The notes under the pieces: model-generated
Told to the model about the DNA's origin: nothing
The model's input: the letters and a program-made list of their open reading frames with translations, nothing else
Databases searched by the model: none
DNA from: Clostridiales bacterium
GTDB taxonomy: Bacteria > Bacillota > Clostridia > Lachnospirales > Lachnospiraceae
Reading direction: 5' to 3'
Assembly: GCA_012839085.1 (NCBI GenBank)
Contig: DUNZ01000113.1
Coordinates: 1-40,897 of the forward strand
DNA length: 40,897 nucleotides
Shown: in pieces, positions 31,337 to 40,651 of the stretch
How positions within the stretch are numbered: position 1 is the stretch's first letter
Layout: every line of letters starts with the position of its first letter
Position numbers and translations under genes: made by a program

Positions 31337-32938
31337 CTAATTTAGATGCTGCTTACCCATCGGTTTATAATAATCAAAGACCCTATCCTCCATTAAATTC
31401 AAGGTTTCACCTCTGAAAACATCCCCCAAGGCATCTACGATATCCCCAGCCAACATAGAATAATTACTATGTTTGCTAGCTGCAATATCTCCTGCTAAAC
31501 CATGGATATAAACCCCGAGACAAGAGGCTTCAAAAGCTTCCATCCCTTGAGCATAAAGTCCAGCAATAATTCCCGTTAAAACATCACCACTTCCACCGGT
31601 GGCCATACCATTATTACCAGAAATATTAATGTAAAGCTTGCCTTGTCTACTTACAATGGTTCGAGCATCCTTCATTACATATATTAACTTATTATTATAA
31701 GAACATTCTCTTGCAGTGTCAATGATATTATTGGATATTTCTGATAATTCCCTTTTTAATAACCTAGATAATTCCATAGGATGAGGGGTTAAAATGGCAT
31801 GAGCTTTTAGCAGTTTGGATAGAAAATTTATTCTTTCTTGCCCCAGCAAAGCCTGACGATCCATTTTTTTAGCCAATAGATTCAATCCATCTGCATCAAT
31901 AATCACTGGTACCTTGGCCTCTATAAGGACAAAATCTAAAAGTTTTTCTGTAAAGGCTGTCTGACCAAGTCCAGGGCCAATAATAATCACCGATGCCCAG
32001 GACAAGTTCTCAGCTATCCTCTTCTCCCATTCATCATTGCTTTTACCATAAGCATCATAGGCTTCAAATAAGGCCTCTGATAGCGTTGACTGTAAAATTA
32101 GCCGATTGGAGGAAGAAGTGAGGACTTTCACTAAGCCAGCCCCGGTTCGATATGCTGCCTTTGCTGCTAAGTAAGCAGCTCCTGACATTCCTTCACTCCC
32201 TGCGATCACCAGTACCTTCCCATAGGATCCCTTATGACTATCCTTCTTACGAAGGGGAAGTAGACTTAAGTCTTCCAAACCATAATAAAAAGTATCTAGC
32301 TTAGCCTTTTGTTCCCCATTTATGGGAAAACCGATATCTACTACCTTAATCTCTCCGCAATACTCTGCTCCCGGCAATAAAAGCATACCAATTTTGGCAT
32401 ATCCAAAGGTAATGGTAACATTGGCTTTAACAGCAACATTCATAACTTGGCCATGATCTGCTGATATTCCGGAAGGGATATCAACGGAATAAATCCTTTG
32501 ATTGCCTTGATTCATATTCTTGATGACAGCTTCATAAACTCCTGTCACTGGTCTTGATAAGCCAACCCCAAAAATGGCATCGATAAGGATATCATAATCC
32601 CATATCTGATGACTTTCCACAAAGGGTATCCCAATATTTTTAGCAATGGTTAGCTGAAGCTTAGTCTCCTTGCTTGCCTTGCTTTCATCCCCTAGAAAAA
32701 GAATAGCAACATGATAGCCCTGTAAATACAGAATTCTACCTGCTGCAATTCCATCACCACCATTATTTCCAGGTCCACACACCGCTAATATTCGGTCTCT
32801 CTTATGTAAATCCTTCTTCATATGAGAAACCGTTTCATATGCTGCTCTTTCCATTAAAACCATAGAAGGGATTTTAATCTCTTCTATGGCATAGTCATCG
32901 ATCATTTTCATACTTTTTGAAGTAACTGCGTAATACAT
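31337..32938 (-). CDS. nnr: Bifunctional NAD(P)HX epimerase/dehydratase
   Basis: ATG 32938 follows GTGAGGTG with good spacing, giving about 533 aa. The N-terminal YjeF_N half (about 1-210) has VCGPGNNGGDGIAAGR and SVDIPSGISAD. The C-terminal carbohydrate-kinase-like dehydratase half has GKVLVIAGSEGMSGAAYLA, ILTPHPMELSRLL and GMATGGSGDVLTGIIAGL. Together they repair hydrated NAD(P)H. It starts 12 bases after acpS and is part of the rex-acpS-alr run. Confidence 0.96.
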   Translation of the reverse strand: MYYAVTSKSMKMIDDYAIEEIKIPSMVLMERAAYETVSHMKKDLHKRDRILAVCGPGNNGGDGIAAGRILYLQGYHVAILFLGDESKASKETKLQLTIAKNIGIPFVESHQIWDYDILIDAIFGVGLSRPVTGVYEAVIKNMNQGNQRIYSVDIPSGISADHGQVMNVAVKANVTITFGYAKIGMLLLPGAEYCGEIKVVDIGFPINGEQKAKLDTFYYGLEDLSLLPLRKKDSHKGSYGKVLVIAGSEGMSGAAYLAAKAAYRTGAGLVKVLTSSSNRLILQSTLSEALFEAYDAYGKSNDEWEKRIAENLSWASVIIIGPGLGQTAFTEKLLDFVLIEAKVPVIIDADGLNLLAKKMDRQALLGQERINFLSKLLKAHAILTPHPMELSRLLKRELSEISNNIIDTARECSYNNKLIYVMKDARTIVSRQGKLYINISGNNGMATGGSGDVLTGIIAGLYAQGMEAFEASCLGVYIHGLAGDIAASKHSNYSMLAGDIVDALGDVFRGETLNLMEDRVFDYYKPMGKQHLN

Positions 32939-32950
32939 ACGGCACCTCAC

Positions 32951-33313
32951 TTAGATTGATTCCCCTACTACAAATGCATTGGCATAATCTTTTGTATTGG
33001 ATATAGAAACATGAATTTTATTAATATTCTGAGATTTTGCCAACTCTTTAGCCCCTCCTTTTAAGTTTACATAAGGTTTTCCTAGGTCATCCCTAAGTAC
33101 CTCAATGTCAATGGGGGTAAAGGTTCGAAAACCAGTTCCGAACATTTTGGACACCGCTTCTTTTACAGCAAAATTATCTGCTGCTTTTCGAATATCTTCT
33201 TGAATAATAAGGATTTCCTTTTCTGTAAAATACCTTCGTAGAAATCCTTCTTTTTCACAAGCCTTAGTTACCCGGTCAACTTCAATTAAATCTACCCCAA
33301 TCCCGGTAACCAT
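32951..33313 (-). CDS. acpS: Holo-[acyl-carrier-protein] synthase
   Basis: ATG 33313 (MVTGIGVDLIEVDRV) with AAGGTGG upstream gives 120 aa, the usual AcpS size. GIGVDLIEVDRV carries the Mg2+-binding Asp, and AADNFAVKEAVSKMFGTGF has the Glu/Lys pair. It transfers 4'-phosphopantetheine from CoA to acyl carrier protein. The longer track frame overlaps the coiled-coil gene upstream and is unsupported. Confidence 0.95.
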   Translation of the reverse strand: MVTGIGVDLIEVDRVTKACEKEGFLRRYFTEKEILIIQEDIRKAADNFAVKEAVSKMFGTGFRTFTPIDIEVLRDDLGKPYVNLKGGAKELAKSQNINKIHVSISNTKDYANAFVVGESI

Positions 33314-33335
33314 CTTACCACCTTGTCCTTTCCTG

Positions 33336-33947
33336 TTAGTAATCCTCTTGTTCAGAATCAATCTTCTCCATAACCTGTGGACCAAGCAAATCATGCATAT
33401 AAGTATAAATCTTGGAATTCATAGTTTCCATATCTTGCTTGAAGACGATTTTTTCCTTCAGTTCATTTCTCATCTTCATAATCCAATCAGAAATCTCTTC
33501 AATTTGGACCTTGTTTTTATTCATACGATCATAAAAAATATGGAGACTCTCAATGAGAAGCTCTTCATTGGCCTCCTTTATCTGATATGGTAGATCTGCT
33601 AGCTCTTCCGAAGCATTTTTTATCTTATCATTCAATTCCGTAATAAATTGCTTGTTTCGTTCTAGCTTTCTTTCCCTGGCTTTTCCAAGGTGATCCGAAC
33701 GAATCTCCATATTTTCAACGATTTCATTGATCAACTTGTTTTTTAGCTTTTTCATATCTTTGATATCGTGAACCAGTTTTCCTTGCTGCTTTAATAGCTG
33801 ATTCACTTTAACTTCTAGTGCCTTGATTTCTGCAGTCTTATCTTTTTCTGTAAATATCTCATGCCATCGAGAATCTAGTGTAAGAATGGGGATTTTCCTG
33901 TTCTTGACCAACTGAGCATAGTTTGATTTTTTACTTTTCCTTCCCAT
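33336..33947 (-). CDS. Coiled-coil protein of unknown function between rex and acpS
   Basis: The protein is about 203 aa from ATG 33947 (MGRKSKKSNYAQLVKN), with AAAGG upstream. After a basic N-terminus comes a short motif ILTLDSRWHEIF and then long heptad-rich helices (about residues 40-150) with KLVHDIKDMKKLKNKL, and an acidic C-terminus. No membrane segment or signal peptide. I cannot name the family with certainty. It is tightly packed, 31 bases after rex and 22 bases before acpS, so it is co-transcribed. A structural or envelope-related role is possible but not shown. Confidence 0.8.
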   Translation of the reverse strand: MGRKSKKSNYAQLVKNRKIPILTLDSRWHEIFTEKDKTAEIKALEVKVNQLLKQQGKLVHDIKDMKKLKNKLINEIVENMEIRSDHLGKARERKLERNKQFITELNDKIKNASEELADLPYQIKEANEELLIESLHIFYDRMNKNKVQIEEISDWIMKMRNELKEKIVFKQDMETMNSKIYTYMHDLLGPQVMEKIDSEQEDY

Positions 33948-33978
33948 AAAATACCGGCCTTTCATAGAACCAATAACA

Positions 33979-34629
33979 TTACCCCTCTTTTTTCTTAAGA
34001 TTCTCTTTTACTGATAATCGATAAGAAAGTTTCATAAGACTTTCCGCCAGATGAACATTTTCTACAGTAACATCACTGGGCAAATGTAAGTCTGTTGGGG
34101 CAAAGTTCCATATTCCTTTGATCCCCCAAGATACCAAATCTGCAGCCAATAAAGGAGCACTAGTTTTGGGAACCGTAAGGGCTGCGATGTCAATATCGTT
34201 ATCTTTTATATATTCCTCCATTTGTTCTAGGGGCTGTACTTCTATATCACGTATTTTCGTTCCAATAATCTTAGGATCTATATCAAAGATAGCAACAATC
34301 TGGAATCCACGTCTGGCAAAATCTGTATAGTTTGCCAGGGCTTGTCCCAGGTTACCTGCTCCAATTATTATCACTTTATATTTCCGATCCAGTCCTAATA
34401 TCTTACCTATTTCAGAATGGAGATACTCCACATTATAGCCATATCCCTGTTGACCAAATCCCCCGAAATTATTTAAATCCTGTCTAATCTGTGATGCGGT
34501 AACCTTCATCTTTTCGCTTAATTCTTTAGATGAGATTCTTACAACGTCCTTCTCCAATAAATCGCCTAGATATCTGTAGTATCTTGGTAATCGATTTATA
34601 ACGGCTTTGGAAATTTCTTTCTTACTCAA
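33979..34629 (-). CDS. rex: Redox-sensing transcriptional repressor Rex
   Basis: The 216-aa protein starts at TTG 34629 with GGGGGA upstream. It has an N-terminal winged helix (RLPRYYRYL, ASQIRQDLNNFGGFGQQGYGY) and a Rossmann domain with IIGAGNLGQALANY at about residues 89-101, where NADH/NAD binds. Rex represses fermentation and NADH-oxidising genes until the NADH/NAD ratio rises. It heads the probable run rex, coiled-coil, acpS, nnrDE, alr, mazF, corC. Confidence 0.96.
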   Translation of the reverse strand: MSKKEISKAVINRLPRYYRYLGDLLEKDVVRISSKELSEKMKVTASQIRQDLNNFGGFGQQGYGYNVEYLHSEIGKILGLDRKYKVIIIGAGNLGQALANYTDFARRGFQIVAIFDIDPKIIGTKIRDIEVQPLEQMEEYIKDNDIDIAALTVPKTSAPLLAADLVSWGIKGIWNFAPTDLHLPSDVTVENVHLAESLMKLSYRLSVKENLKKKEG

Positions 34630-34671
34630 TGGTTATCCCCCTTCATAAAATTATAGTTTAATTATATGCAA

Positions 34672-34689
34672 TTGTTAATAATAAGTCAA
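34672..34689 (-). promoter_or_regulatory. Possible degenerate Rex operator upstream of rex
   Basis: TTGTTAATAATAAGTCAA has one perfect half of the clostridial Rex consensus TTGTTAA-N4-TTAACAA; the second half matches only at its CAA end. Its location about 43 bases before rex would suit autoregulation, but the match is weak. Confidence 0.25.
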
Positions 34690-34881
34690 TCTAACTTTCC
34701 TTTACTTGTCCATACTCATATGCTAAAATATATCATTAGTGAAAACTTTTAAACTATACTTATAAGTTATCAAAATATTATTATAAATCAGTATGAAAAC
34801 CCTAACAATACAGGATTTGAATAAAGACAAATTAAGCCACATTTAGTATTATTTAATCATATCAAATAAAGGATGATTTAT

Positions 34882-36861
34882 GTGATTTTATCATGTACAA
34901 ATATAAGCAAGTCATTTGGAACTACACAAATACTGCAATCGGTATCTTTTCATATTAACGAAAGAGAAAAGGCAGCAATTGTGGGTTTGAATGGTGCCGG
35001 AAAATCCACCTTACTTAAAATAATTATGGGAGAGCTTAGTGCTGATGAAGGAGAAGTAATCATAGCTAAGGGTGCTTCCATAGGTTACCTTGCCCAACAT
35101 CAAAACCTTATGTCGGAAAACTCCATCTATGAGGAAATGCTGACGGTAAAAGAGGATGTCATTACTCTGAATAAGAATATTAGAACTTTAGAGCAGGACA
35201 TGAAGCATGCCAAGGGCGAAAAATTAGAACAGATGCTTAATACCTATACCCGTCTGATGCATGAATTTGAGCTTAAAAATGGTTACGCCTATCAGAGTGA
35301 AGTAACAGGAATTTTAAAAGGTCTTGGATTTTCAGAAGATGAATTTGATAAAAAAATTAACACCCTATCTGGAGGTCAAAAAACCAGAATCGCTCTGGGT
35401 AAACTGTTACTGACTAAACCCGATATCATGCTCCTTGATGAGCCTACTAACCATCTGGACTTAATATCCATTGCCTGGCTAGAAGCTTTTTTAATTAATT
35501 ATAATGGCGCTGTTGTAGTAGTTGCTCACGACCGTTATTTTCTTGATAAGGTGGTAAATAAGGTCATCGAAATTGAAAATAGAAAAGCTATAACCTTTGA
35601 TGGTAATTATTCCGATTATGTAAATAAAAAATCCATGCTTCAAAATGCCTTGATGAAGCAGTACTTAAATCAACAACAAGAAATTAAGCGTCAGGAAGAA
35701 GTTATTGCAAAACTTCGTTCCTTTAATCGGGAAAAATCCATCCGCCGAGCTGAGAGCCGAGAAAAACTTCTAAATAAAATAGAACGAATTGAAAAACCAA
35801 TGGAACATACTCCACAAATGCATTTTGAACTTGAGCCTAGGATTATCAGTGGAAATGATGTACTTAGCGTTAGTGGTTTAGCTAAATCCTATGGAGATTT
35901 ACAACTGTTTTCCAATCTAAATTTTGAAATCAAACGGGGAGAAAAAGTCGCAATTATCGGAAACAATGGAACCGGGAAGACCACAATACTGAAAATCATC
36001 AACGGTCAGGTTGAGGCAGATGATGGGGAAATCCGCTTGGGTACTAAGGTACAAATCGGATATTATGACCAGGAACATCAGGTGCTACACCCGGAAAAAA
36101 CCCTCTTTGATGAGTTGCAGGATACCTATCCACATCTGGACAATACCGCTGTTCGAAACATTCTTGCTGCCTTCCTATTTACCGATGATGATGTATTTAA
36201 ACGAATTAAGGATCTTAGCGGTGGAGAACGAGGAAGAGTAGCTTTAGCCAAACTAATGCTCTCCGAGGCAAACCTATTAATTCTGGACGAGCCTACCAAC
36301 CATTTGGACATAGCTTCAAAGGAAATTCTTGAAAATGTTTTAAATAACTATAGTGGTACTGTTTTATATGTATCCCATGACCGTTACTTTATTAATAAAA
36401 CCGCCACACGAATTCTAGATCTCACCGGTCAAACCTTGCTGAATTATATCGGTAACTATGATTATTATTTAGAGAAGAAGCCGGAAGTTGAAGCTGCATA
36501 CCTTGGGGAAAATATGGATCAGACCCAGGCAAGGTCAGGAAAGCCAGGAGACTTTCCCGCCTCATCCCCCTTTGTTTCCTCTACTAGTTCCCCAGCAGAA
36601 CCCAGTGCAAACAAACTTAGTTGGCATCAACAAAAAGAGGAACAAGCAAGGGAAAGAAAGAGAAAAAATGACTTAAGAAAGATTGAGGATGAAATCTCCC
36701 AATTAGAGACTAGAAATGATGAGATTGATATTCTCCTTACAAAAGAAGAGATTTATACCGATGTGGAAAGATTAATTGAACTAAATAATGAAAAGAAAGA
36801 ACTGGAAGCCAGACTAGAAGTCCTACTGGAACAATGGGAACTTCTAGCCGAAGATAATTAG
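34882..36861 (+). CDS. ABC-F family ATP-binding protein (YdiF/Uup-like)
   Basis: GTG 34882 is preferred since AAAGGATG is spaced correctly and family members begin MILSCxNISK. The protein is about 659 aa: ABC1 with Walker A GLNGAGKSTLLK, signature LSGGQKTRIALGK and Walker B IMLLDEPTNHLD; a charged inter-domain linker; ABC2 with GNNGTGKTTILK, LSGGERGRVALAK and LILDEPTNHLD; and a C-terminal coiled coil after a Pro/Ser-rich linker. No membrane domain. ABC-F proteins act on the ribosome; housekeeping members help stalled translation and some protect from antibiotics. Nothing here points specifically to resistance. Confidence 0.94.
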   Translation: MILSCTNISKSFGTTQILQSVSFHINEREKAAIVGLNGAGKSTLLKIIMGELSADEGEVIIAKGASIGYLAQHQNLMSENSIYEEMLTVKEDVITLNKNIRTLEQDMKHAKGEKLEQMLNTYTRLMHEFELKNGYAYQSEVTGILKGLGFSEDEFDKKINTLSGGQKTRIALGKLLLTKPDIMLLDEPTNHLDLISIAWLEAFLINYNGAVVVVAHDRYFLDKVVNKVIEIENRKAITFDGNYSDYVNKKSMLQNALMKQYLNQQQEIKRQEEVIAKLRSFNREKSIRRAESREKLLNKIERIEKPMEHTPQMHFELEPRIISGNDVLSVSGLAKSYGDLQLFSNLNFEIKRGEKVAIIGNNGTGKTTILKIINGQVEADDGEIRLGTKVQIGYYDQEHQVLHPEKTLFDELQDTYPHLDNTAVRNILAAFLFTDDDVFKRIKDLSGGERGRVALAKLMLSEANLLILDEPTNHLDIASKEILENVLNNYSGTVLYVSHDRYFINKTATRILDLTGQTLLNYIGNYDYYLEKKPEVEAAYLGENMDQTQARSGKPGDFPASSPFVSSTSSPAEPSANKLSWHQQKEEQARERKRKNDLRKIEDEISQLETRNDEIDILLTKEEIYTDVERLIELNNEKKELEARLEVLLEQWELLAEDN

Positions 36862-37169: not shown

Positions 37170-37844
37170 TTATTTGCATAAACCTTGTTCGCTGATATTT
37201 TGTATGGTGTTCATAATATGTTCATGAGCCAGGGCTTCTGCCAATTCTCCATTCTTCTGCTTAATTGCATCAAGAATAGCGGCATGTTCTGCACTGGATT
37301 TTGAAGCCCTTGAAGGCATGGATAAGGTAATCTTTCTTACTCTTTCCACATAATGATGAAAATCGGATAATACATGTTCCAAAATCTTACTGCCCGAAGC
37401 CTTATAAATCAATTCATGGAATTTATTATCTAACTCAACCAATTGTTTCATATGACTTCTTCTAGCATGGAAATCCGAAAGATACAAGACTTCTTCCAAA
37501 GCCTCAATTTGTGCATTGGTGATGTTTTCACAAGCCCATTTTGCACATAAGCCTTCTAAATAGGAACGTATTACATAGATATCTCGAATATCCTTCGATG
37601 TGATTCCTGTAACATAAGCTCCTTTATTCGGTATAATTGTAACCAAACCTTCTAATTCAAGCTGCCTTAATGCTTCTCTGACCGGGGTACGGCTTACTCC
37701 GAGTACCTTTGCTATGGTATTTTCCCTCAGCTCATCATTCTCTTTATATATTCCGGCCAATATATCTTCCCGTATCTTATGAAACACCCTACCCGTTAAA
37801 GAATATTTATCTGCAGCATCTATTTGAAGATACTGTTCTGCCAA
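37170..37844 (-). CDS. GntR-family regulator, FadR (FCD) subgroup
   Basis: The 224-aa protein starts with TTG 37844 behind AAGGAGGG. The winged helix (about 15-80) has VFHKIREDILAGIY, VSRTPVREALRQLELEGLV and NKGAYVTGI; the C-terminal FCD ligand domain (about 88-215) has the metal/ligand residues in LDNKFHELIYKASG and EHAAILDAIKQKN. It begins 12 bases after the isocitrate dehydrogenase stop, so it belongs to the citrate operon. A perfect palindrome at the operon promoter fits FadR-type operators, suggesting autoregulation by an organic-acid ligand (inferred). Confidence 0.92.
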   Translation of the reverse strand: MAEQYLQIDAADKYSLTGRVFHKIREDILAGIYKENDELRENTIAKVLGVSRTPVREALRQLELEGLVTIIPNKGAYVTGITSKDIRDIYVIRSYLEGLCAKWACENITNAQIEALEEVLYLSDFHARRSHMKQLVELDNKFHELIYKASGSKILEHVLSDFHHYVERVRKITLSMPSRASKSSAEHAAILDAIKQKNGELAEALAHEHIMNTIQNISEQGLCK

Positions 37845-37856
37845 GGATGTCCCTCC

Positions 37857-39029
37857 TTAATTATTCATTGCCTCTATGGTTTCCATTAGATAATCGGCAA
37901 ATTCCTCACCAGTTGCACCGGTATCCCTTCCGGTAATCACTAGTTTCTTTTCTGATACTGTACAAATATCTAAAGCTTTGTATAATTGTTCTGCTTCCTT
38001 ATTATATCCAATATGGGACAGAAGCATTGCCCCTGCACGAATCATACTACAAGGGTCAGCATATTTGTCTCTTCCCTCCAGTACCATACGAGGAGCAGAA
38101 CCATGAATCGCTTCAAACATTGCATATTTCTTACCAATATTGGCACTTCCTGCTGTTCCAACACCGCCTTGGAATTCTGCTGCTTCATCCGTAATAATAT
38201 CACCGTAAAGATTGGGAAGAACAACTACTTGGAAGTCTTTCCTTCTCTTCTCATCAACTAATTTCGCAGTCATAATATCGATGTACCAGTCATCGGCTGT
38301 GATATCTGGATACTCTTTCGCAATCTCCCTAAAGATATCCAAGAATTTACCATCGGTGGTCTTAATAATATTGGCCTTAGTAACGGCAGTTACTCTAGTC
38401 TTACCATTGGCTTTAGCAAATTCAAAAGCAGCACGAATGATTCTCTCTGTTCCTTGGCTAGTTACAACGGTAAAGTCAACTCCTAAATCCTCTGTAACAT
38501 GAATTCCCTTGCTACCAACTGCGTAAGCACCTTCGGTATTTTCTCTGTAGAAAGTCCAATCAATACCCTGTTCAGGAATACGAACTGGTCTTACATTGGC
38601 AAATAGATCCAACTCTTTTCTCATGGCAACATTGGCACTCTCTACATTTGGCCAAGGATCCCCTTTTCTTGGTGTTGTGGTAGGTCCTTTTAATATTACA
38701 TGGCACTTTTTGATTTCTTCTAATACTGCCGGTGGAATAGCTGCATTTTCTTCTGCTCTTCGTTCAATGGTTAGACCTTCTATGTTTCTAAAAACAATTC
38801 TTCCGGAAGCCACATCATCCTTAAGAAGATATTTCAAAACTCTTTCTGCTTGGGCTGTGATTGCTGGTCCAATGCCATCTCCACCACAAACGCCGATAAT
38901 AATCTGATCCAAGGACTTATAATCAATAAAATCTCCCTGGGCTTTCATGTTCTCTACTCTTTTCAACTGTTCCTCAAGTAATTGACCAAATCTCTCTTTT
39001 GCTAATTCAATTTTTTCTCTAGAAACCAT
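37857..39029 (-). CDS. Isocitrate dehydrogenase (isocitrate/isopropylmalate family, probably NAD-dependent)
   Basis: ATG 39029 with GGAGGATT upstream gives 390 aa. The family hallmarks are VCGGDGIGPAI, KGPTTTPRKGDP, FYRENTEGAYAV, NLYGDIITDEAAEFQGG and FEAIHGSAPRM. The substrate loop ESANVAMRKE keeps the Ser and Asn seen in isocitrate dehydrogenases, favouring isocitrate over isopropylmalate. It would make 2-oxoglutarate. It lies between a Re-citrate-synthase-like gene and a GntR regulator on the same strand. Cofactor choice is inferred from the family rather than shown. Confidence 0.88.
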   Translation of the reverse strand: MVSREKIELAKERFGQLLEEQLKRVENMKAQGDFIDYKSLDQIIIGVCGGDGIGPAITAQAERVLKYLLKDDVASGRIVFRNIEGLTIERRAEENAAIPPAVLEEIKKCHVILKGPTTTPRKGDPWPNVESANVAMRKELDLFANVRPVRIPEQGIDWTFYRENTEGAYAVGSKGIHVTEDLGVDFTVVTSQGTERIIRAAFEFAKANGKTRVTAVTKANIIKTTDGKFLDIFREIAKEYPDITADDWYIDIMTAKLVDEKRRKDFQVVVLPNLYGDIITDEAAEFQGGVGTAGSANIGKKYAMFEAIHGSAPRMVLEGRDKYADPCSMIRAGAMLLSHIGYNKEAEQLYKALDICTVSEKKLVITGRDTGATGEEFADYLMETIEAMNN

Positions 39030-39178
39030 TACAATCCTCCAATTCATTTACAAGGGTTAGTAAGGCAAAGATCAGCTTTCACTAAAGCACCTTGTTTATT
39101 TGTAGTATCATATTGTCCATTTTCTATTGTATGTATTTCTAATCCTAATGTCAAATCCTAACTGCATAGGAATTAAAT

Positions 39179-40570
39179 TTATACAACTTTTACTCCCAAT
39201 TCCTCTTGTGCCTTCTGGATGACTTCTATTAACTCATCATCGGTGATCACAGTAACCCGGCCATCCTCATATTCCTGATCCACCCAAGCCTTTACATAGG
39301 CCACAAGGGGATGGCTCTTATCCACTGCCCTATCATCCTTTAGTTTATAGAAAGTATTGATCCAGTGGGCGATTCCGGCTAGTCCTGAAGTATTGGATAC
39401 CGCAACCAATACTGGTCTATTTAAAAACTTCTCGGTGTCAAATATATTATAAATCTCTTCATTTTTCAGTAATCCGTCGGCATGGATTCCTGCCCTAGTC
39501 ACATTGAAATTCTTACCAACAAAAGGAGTCCTGGAAGGAAGACGATAGCCGATTTCCTTTTCAAAATACTCCGCTAATTCCGTGATTACAGTCGTATCCA
39601 TACCATCCAAGGTTCCCTTTAATTGAGCATATTCAAAGACCATGGCCTCCAAGGGGGTATTTCCAGTTCTTTCACCAATTCCAAATAAGGAACAATTCAC
39701 TCCAGCGGCTCCATACAACCAAGCAGTGGTAGAATTGGTAACCGCCTTATAAAAATCATTGTGGCCGTGCCATTCTAGCCACTTGGATGGAACACCAGCA
39801 TGGGTGATTAGTCCATAAATAATTCCCTGTACGGAACGAGGAATCACAGCTCCTGAAAAGTTTACCCCATAACCCATGGTATCACAGGCTCTTATTTTTA
39901 CAGGCATCTTGTATTCTTCGCTTAATTTCATCAACTCCGTACAGAAAGGAATGACAAAACCATGAATATCCGATCTTGTGATATCTTCCAAATGACAGCG
40001 AGGGGCAACACCTGTTTCAAGACATTCTTTGATTACGCTTAGGTAATGTTTTAGGGCTTCTTTTCTGGTCATTTTCATTTTATAAAAGATATGGTAGTCG
40101 GAACAGCTAACTAAAATCCCCGTTTCCTTCAAACCAATTTCCTTCACCAATTCAAAATCTTTTTTACTTGCCCTAATCCAGGAGGTTACTTCCGGAAACT
40201 CATATCCTCTCTCCAAACATTGGTATACGGCATCCCGGTCTTTCTTACTGTATAAGAAAAATTCACTCTGACGAATGATTCCTTTTGGCCCACCCAATCG
40301 ATGTAAGTAATCAAAAATGGTTACGATTTGTTCTGTTGTATAGGGAGCTCTGGATTGTTGACCATCCCGGAAGGTGGTATCAGTAATAAAGATATCATCC
40401 GGCATATTGTGGGGGACGATGCGATCATTAAAAGCCACCTTGGGTACTTCATCATAGGGAAACAGATTTCGAAATGTGTTGGGCCGATCCACATCGACCA
40501 GCTGGTAAATTGGCTCCTGTAATTGGAGTAAATTTGTATGTGGGTTAATAAATACTTTTCTCTGCTTCAT
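39179..40570 (-). CDS. Re-citrate synthase-like protein (DRE-TIM family)
   Basis: The 463-aa protein is a DRE-TIM metallolyase with FITDTTFRDGQQSRAPYT, CHLEDITRSDIHGFV, RACDTMGYGVNF, WHGHNDFYKAVTNS and GERTGNTPLEAMVFE. Databases often call these homocitrate or isopropylmalate synthase, but they are close in form to the Re-citrate synthase first described in Clostridium kluyveri. Pairing with isocitrate dehydrogenase supports citrate formation from oxaloacetate and acetyl-CoA. GGAGATG precedes the ATG. The C-terminal regulatory LeuA dimer domain of isopropylmalate synthases is absent. Aconitase is not in the window. Confidence 0.85.
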   Translation of the reverse strand: MKQRKVFINPHTNLLQLQEPIYQLVDVDRPNTFRNLFPYDEVPKVAFNDRIVPHNMPDDIFITDTTFRDGQQSRAPYTTEQIVTIFDYLHRLGGPKGIIRQSEFFLYSKKDRDAVYQCLERGYEFPEVTSWIRASKKDFELVKEIGLKETGILVSCSDYHIFYKMKMTRKEALKHYLSVIKECLETGVAPRCHLEDITRSDIHGFVIPFCTELMKLSEEYKMPVKIRACDTMGYGVNFSGAVIPRSVQGIIYGLITHAGVPSKWLEWHGHNDFYKAVTNSTTAWLYGAAGVNCSLFGIGERTGNTPLEAMVFEYAQLKGTLDGMDTTVITELAEYFEKEIGYRLPSRTPFVGKNFNVTRAGIHADGLLKNEEIYNIFDTEKFLNRPVLVAVSNTSGLAGIAHWINTFYKLKDDRAVDKSHPLVAYVKAWVDQEYEDGRVTVITDDELIEVIQKAQEELGVKVV

Positions 40571-40622
40571 ATGTACATCTCCATTCTACCATGATACTAG
40601 ACGCTAAGGTCAAATTTGTATC

Positions 40623-40651
40623 ATTGTATACAATTATACTTGTATTGTCAA
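40623..40651 (-). promoter_or_regulatory. Citrate operon promoter with overlapping GntR-type operator
   Basis: On the minus strand TTGACA (40651-40646), a 17-base spacer and TACAAT (40628-40623) make a near-consensus sigma-A promoter. The -10 is the right half of a perfect 12-base palindrome ATTGTATACAAT (40623-40634), of the form bound by FadR-type GntR repressors. Start of transcription would be about 45 bases before the citrate synthase ATG. Confidence 0.65.

Follow-up and report, generated by a model that had tools for sequence, protein, structure and literature searches.

The window, a stretch of 40,897 nucleotides from a Clostridiales bacterium of the family Lachnospiraceae, carries an operon encoding an HMGL-like synthase, a PF00180 dehydrogenase and a regulator with GntR and FCD domains, in this order (Table 1). 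A sequence-only reading of the same DNA had described these genes as a three-gene citrate operon ending in a GntR regulator, and the order was confirmed by profile matches to PF00682, PF00180 and PF00392 plus PF07729. The synthase is related to isopropylmalate, homocitrate and citramalate synthases; it matched the HMGL-like family and none of the curated Re-citrate synthase models. Its orthologues in other families share an operon with aconitase and isocitrate dehydrogenase (IDH), and by homology and context the first operon gene is a putative Re-citrate synthase (ReCS). For the IDH gene an additional in-frame ATG lies further upstream, at 39047. The genome of the window also encodes a Si-type (PF00285) citrate synthase (contig C216, 16459-17637) and thus possesses both types of citrate synthase. 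Genes for an ABC-F type ATPase and/or the redox regulator Rex, AcpS and NAD(P)H-hydrate repair are frequent neighbours of the gntR or ReCS locus.

Table 1. Features of the citrate operon and its promoters in the window, and operon variants in related genomes (acn, aconitase gene).
Feature	Position or locus	Strand	Basis or remark
HMGL-like synthase, Re-type citrate synthase (ReCS) by homology and context	39179..40570	-	PF00682
NAD-type isocitrate dehydrogenase (IDH)	37857..39029	-	Profile match, PF00180
FCD-type GntR regulator, TTG start, last operon gene	37170..37844	-	PF00392 + PF07729
-35 hexamer TTGACA of operon promoter P1	40646..40651	-	Sequence
Candidate 22-bp operator GTATAATTGTATACAATGATAC (consensus GTATnATTGTATACAATnATAC)	40618..40639	-	Per-position conservation, 117 distinct orthologous promoters
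Core perfect palindrome ATTGTATACAAT	40623..40634	-	Exact in 54/63 family-sample and 56/60 named sites (sites within one mismatch)
-10 hexamer TACAAT, right half of ATTGTATACAAT	40623..40628	-	Sequence and promoter scan
Promoter-like element P2, TTGACA-N17-TACAAT before IDH-gntR, lacking the left palindrome arm	39126..39154	-	Kept in 15 loci
Conserved neighbourhood beside the citrate branch (ABC-F, Rex, AcpS, NAD(P)H-hydrate repair)	L130-L133, L065, L216, window 31337-36861		
Four-gene operon ReCS-aconitase-IDH-gntR	L216 1402-6678		
ReCS-acn-IDH-gntR, site ahead	L305, L307, L308, L313, L319		Other families of the order
ReCS-IDH-gntR, site ahead	L320		Other family of the order
Aconitase-IDH-gntR, site ahead with one mismatch	L316		Other family of the order
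IDH-gntR, site ahead	L312		Other family of the order
ReCS-gntR followed by an aconitase relative, site ahead	L306, L311		Other family of the order

The operon promoter (P1) has its two hexamers separated by a spacer of 17 bases and was scored as an 11/12 sigma-70 match by the promoter scan. As the sequence-only reading had noticed, its -10 lies inside the perfect palindrome ATTGTATACAAT. On its own the 12-bp palindrome is within chance expectation: the window contains 18 perfect 12-bp palindromes against 14.5 expected from first-order simulation, and matches to ATTGTATACAAT with up to two mismatches occur at the same frequency as in shuffled sequences. The single exact copy in the 2.65-Mb assembly is about the chance expectation for one 12-mer, and copies with at most one mismatch number 27 in the assembly versus 30 in the reversed control. 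Its conservation and its co-occurrence with gntR, however, go far beyond chance. A chance palindrome, an explanation that fits the 12-mer alone, was ruled out by these two features.

Among 117 distinct orthologous promoters, each of the 12 core positions shows at least 97% invariance, a value that is partly built in, as these promoters were chosen for at most one mismatch to the core. The arms, flanks and -35 played no part in this choice. The flanks lengthen the palindrome to 22 bp with the consensus GTATnATTGTATACAATnATAC, which the window matches completely (GTATAATTGTATACAATGATAC). TTGACA is placed 17 bp upstream of TACAAT in most of the aligned promoters, and TTGAC with a spacer of 17 or 18 is kept in 59/63 sites of the family sample and 52/60 sites of the named set, both described below. 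Assuming a transcription start 7 bp past the -10, the operator would reach from about -23 to about -2 and take in the -10 together with the downstream half of a spacer of normal 17-bp length, a placement that is repressor geometry. Operators of FadR-subfamily GntR proteins belong to the GT-N2-AC class and are TKGT/ACMA palindromes with 2-3 nt between GT and AC, and additional half-sites have been reported for GntR regulators (PMC4494728). The core ATTGTATACAAT contains GT-AT-AC, with 2 nt between GT and AC, and outer boxes about 9 nt from the operator centre resemble the additional half-sites.

We searched 150 genomes of the family, one per genus, for the regulator and the synthase, took regions around every listed synthase match and scored the promoters for the palindrome with at most one mismatch, leaving out L119 and L127, whose contigs begin inside the synthase gene. 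The prediction set beforehand, that the palindrome occurs only where gntR is present, held: it was found in 54/55 ReCS promoters with gntR in the operon and in 0/10 without it (Fisher 6e-11, promoters counted without phylogenetic correction). In the sole exception, L083, an NADP-type isocitrate dehydrogenase (NADP-ICD) gene precedes the synthase and the site stands before that gene, at the operon start. The gntR label changes 7 times on the synthase tree, with 5 independent pairs on well-supported branches that are all concordant once L083 is scored at the operon start; the sign test gave 0.0625, the lowest p possible with 5 pairs, so that the limit here is the sample and not conflict. The promoter of L102, gntR-less in its incomplete assembly, retains a degenerate TTTGTATACACT in the promoter context, as expected for decay after gntR loss. 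A named set of 80 loci was collected with the regulator as query (including Herbinix, Mobilitalea, Anaerocolumna, Lachnoclostridium, Roseburia, Eubacterium ramulus, Lachnotalea and Petrocella). In this set, which stems partly from the same genomes as the family sample and is not fully independent of it, 60/60 testable synthase-first promoters have the site within one mismatch, 56 of them exactly.

The site precedes whichever gene leads the operon, be it citrate synthase, dehydrogenase, aconitase or gntR. Twelve family genomes have the regulator with no adjacent synthase, and there gntR heads its own transcript; these gntR-first promoters contain the site exactly (8), with one mismatch (2), with two mismatches (1) or not at all (L134). 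The next gene encodes an NADP-type isocitrate dehydrogenase in 10 of the 12 loci and a Si-type citrate synthase follows in three, one example of each being named by model. In L189 the site precedes IDH. It recurs in other families of the order (Table 1), and in another family it is conserved at GntR identities as low as 41-46% (L306, L311, L315). Exceptions to the pairing of regulator and site are L134, L135, where the site has two mismatches, and a number of more remote regulators that lack the site (family f2, L318). Because the site stands before different first genes, it belongs to the regulator-bearing operon and not to one enzyme. The palindrome as a feature of Re-citrate synthase was thus ruled out, since it stays with gntR in the absence of ReCS and is gone where ReCS lacks gntR. 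Of the circuit dedicated to Re-citrate synthase that the sequence-only reading had envisaged, the constancy of the site with the gntR operon stands, but the restriction to this enzyme does not, as NADP-ICD and Si-citrate synthase operons share regulator and site. The four-gene form is widespread, which suggests an ancestral operon for the whole route from oxaloacetate to 2-oxoglutarate; this operon probably also held aconitase, which the lineage of the window would then have lost from it.

A search for promoter plus palindrome in the 150 genomes yielded 53 sites, 51 of them at the citrate operon, and 0 in the reversed control; the remaining two lie at a paralogous FCD-GntR gene (L301) and, as judged by eye, at a MarR-like gene (L302). 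The bare 12-mer occurs in about one to two copies per genome, the background being near one. A wide regulon was ruled out on these counts and, judged from sequence, the regulon looks like a single operon. In the genome of the window, no site within one mismatch was found in the promoter of the Si-citrate synthase gene (C216) or, for the best aconitase match (C56), on its short contig.

The regulator itself consists of an N-terminal GntR winged helix (PF00392, 68.7 bits) and a C-terminal FCD domain (PF07729, 102.4 bits); together with the GT-N2-AC form of the site, this bears out the earlier proposal of a FadR-subgroup GntR protein with a palindrome of fitting shape. Orthologues in the family and named sets are 53-82% identical, and in the family sample identity is 53-73% in most genomes and 43-44% in L120 and L122. 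The AlphaFold model (pLDDT 88.6) resembles solved FCD regulators with a query TM-score of up to 0.78, and the fold matches include PmiR and a VanR with bound citrate. R93, D139, H143, H187 and H209 are invariant in 35 orthologues, and the Asp and three His among them would form the buried metal site of the FCD class. In CitO of Enterococcus faecalis, an FCD-GntR citrate sensor and citrate-dependent activator of citrate fermentation genes that binds at -41 to -65, the citrate and metal residues are Arg97, Asn147, His191 and His213 (PMC4746285). The invariant pocket residues R93, H143, H187 and H209 share this Arg and metal-ligand spacing, so that the leading guess for the effector is a metal-bound small carboxylate, likely one of the pathway's tricarboxylates (citrate, isocitrate or a closely related compound). 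With most FCD repressors the ligand causes release; a ligand tightening the regulator, that is end-product repression, would also suit an operon supplying glutamate.

The likeness to CitO extends to the FCD fold and to the encoding of both regulators in operons for citrate metabolism. CitO, however, acts from upstream on citrate fermentation genes, whereas the present site covers the -10 of an operon for citrate synthesis: it lies at about -23 to -2 and not in the CitO-type position upstream of the -35 (about -41 to -74). The closest solved relative by sequence is PmiR of Pseudomonas aeruginosa (PDB 7xp0/7xp1; E 4.8e-28), also among the best fold matches and 34% identical in the fold alignment, hence related but far from orthologous; it belongs to another organism group, controls other genes and is compared here by protein sequence and fold. 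PmiR is reported to sense 2-methylisocitrate, which would share the tricarboxylate class with the proposed effector. HypR of Streptomyces coelicolor is an FCD repressor with a metal site and binds its own promoter over the -10 (PMC6608401). These features match those proposed for our regulator; HypR differs in its function, the control of hydroxyproline use, and in its motif TACAATGTCAC, which is without clear symmetry.

The Bacillus subtilis GntR, whose gnt operator is ATACTTGTATACAAGTAT and whose effector is gluconate, is an autoregulated FadR-subfamily repressor. Its operator and the present one have a 10-bp core in common, TTGTATACAA; in contrast, the outer arms of the two operators are unlike and B. 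subtilis GntR controls gluconate use. It is grouped with the regulators whose GT/AC spacing is 2 nt (PMC4494728). In L301 (2667-2760), two exact copies of ATTGTATACAAT are located between another FCD-GntR gene, whose product is 32% identical to the operon regulator, and a dihydroxy-acid/6-phosphogluconate dehydratase gene, i.e. in the regulator's own divergent promoter. These copies imply that the core is a class-level site common to other FCD regulators, and operator specificity may rest on the outer arms.

In our view, the palindrome very probably serves as operator for the FCD-type GntR regulator of the same operon, with the operon autogenously repressed and a metal-bound carboxylate as the likely signal. 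A GntR dimer would occupy the stretch from about -23 to about -2 and bar RNA polymerase from the -10, thereby repressing citrate synthase, isocitrate dehydrogenase and the regulator, and the FCD domain would read a metal-bound small carboxylate of the pathway. We infer binding, repression rather than activation and the identity of the effector from these comparisons. The control of all three genes by one site, as first proposed, is retained in part: the P1 operator is linked to gntR, but IDH and gntR may partly use the operator-free promoter-like element P2. The hexamers and 17-bp spacing of P2 are conserved in 15 loci of the Herbinix/Mobilitalea clade, the window included, and its spacer sequence is not. 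TATAAT was also permitted at the -10 in the first scan for P2 and was seen in none of the 15 loci. In the clade of the window, IDH and gntR may therefore be transcribed from P2 as well and so partly escape the control of the site, and the synthase may be the only one of the three genes that waits for the effector.

As CitO is an activator that binds upstream, homology leaves the sign of regulation unfixed, and neither does conservation give the sign. The regulator could thus bind the palindrome as an activator or dual regulator and not as a steric repressor, which we consider unlikely: the site overlies the -10 and the downstream half of the 17-bp spacer, whereas CitO binds at -41 to -65 (PMC4746285), and HypR, with its -10 site, is a repressor (PMC6608401). 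Ownership of the site by another transcription factor, with gntR merely co-occurring, is very improbable. Rex, for example, is encoded close by in the window and in several relatives, but in L065 ReCS still adjoins Rex, as near the operon of the window, and IDH, gntR and the palindrome are missing together; moreover, the site has the GT-N2-AC form of the FadR subfamily (PMC4494728) and is found in two exact copies in the divergent promoter of the other FCD-GntR gene of L301. That strong constraint on a TTGACA/TACAAT promoter explains the conservation and the palindrome is incidental, as P2 with its TTGACA-N17-TACAAT but no palindrome might suggest, is scarcely credible. In P1, ATTGTA in the spacer and the GTAT/ATAC arms beyond the -10 are conserved as well, the palindrome disappears from ReCS promoters that lack gntR, and the site shifts with the first gene of the gntR operon, whichever this is. 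P2 does show that the -10 half alone is no proof of operator function, and the conserved C of the -10, which P2 shares, was dropped as an operator-specific sign.

The proposed autogenous repression of this operon through the palindrome is of a known kind, as autoregulated FCD-GntR operons have been described, while the regulation of the half TCA branch, the route to glutamate, in strict anaerobes using Re-citrate synthase appears undescribed. In the literature searched, no GntR regulator was linked to Re-citrate synthase control, an absence that is weak evidence for subscription papers, which were mostly outside the search; the operator string returned nothing or unrelated matches only. A large comparative study of GntR motifs included one clostridial FadR-type regulator out of 634 (PMC4494728). 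The evidence is about evenly balanced on the wider proposal that one dedicated FCD-GntR sensor runs the anaerobic branch from citrate to 2-oxoglutarate (glutamate) across several families of the order. Such a sensor would stay while the enzymes swap (citrate synthase of the Re or Si type, isocitrate dehydrogenase using NAD or NADP, aconitase inside the operon or outside it), read a pathway tricarboxylate through its metal centre and bind an operator embedded in the -10 of the leading promoter. The 22-bp operator is conserved in cultured species of the gut and in cultured plant fermenters (Roseburia, Eubacterium ramulus, Lachnoclostridium phytofermentans, Anaerocolumna and Herbinix), so that the prediction can be tested directly in laboratory strains and the motif is ready to be used in annotation.

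Finally, GntR relatives 67-69% identical to the regulator are encoded away from citrate genes in L176 (5923) and L188 (5921), where the -10 site is altered to AGTGTATACAAT; a similar locus, L174, is without a close match to the site. L176 and L188 possibly represent recruitment of the regulator to a new locus with a matching change of the operator.
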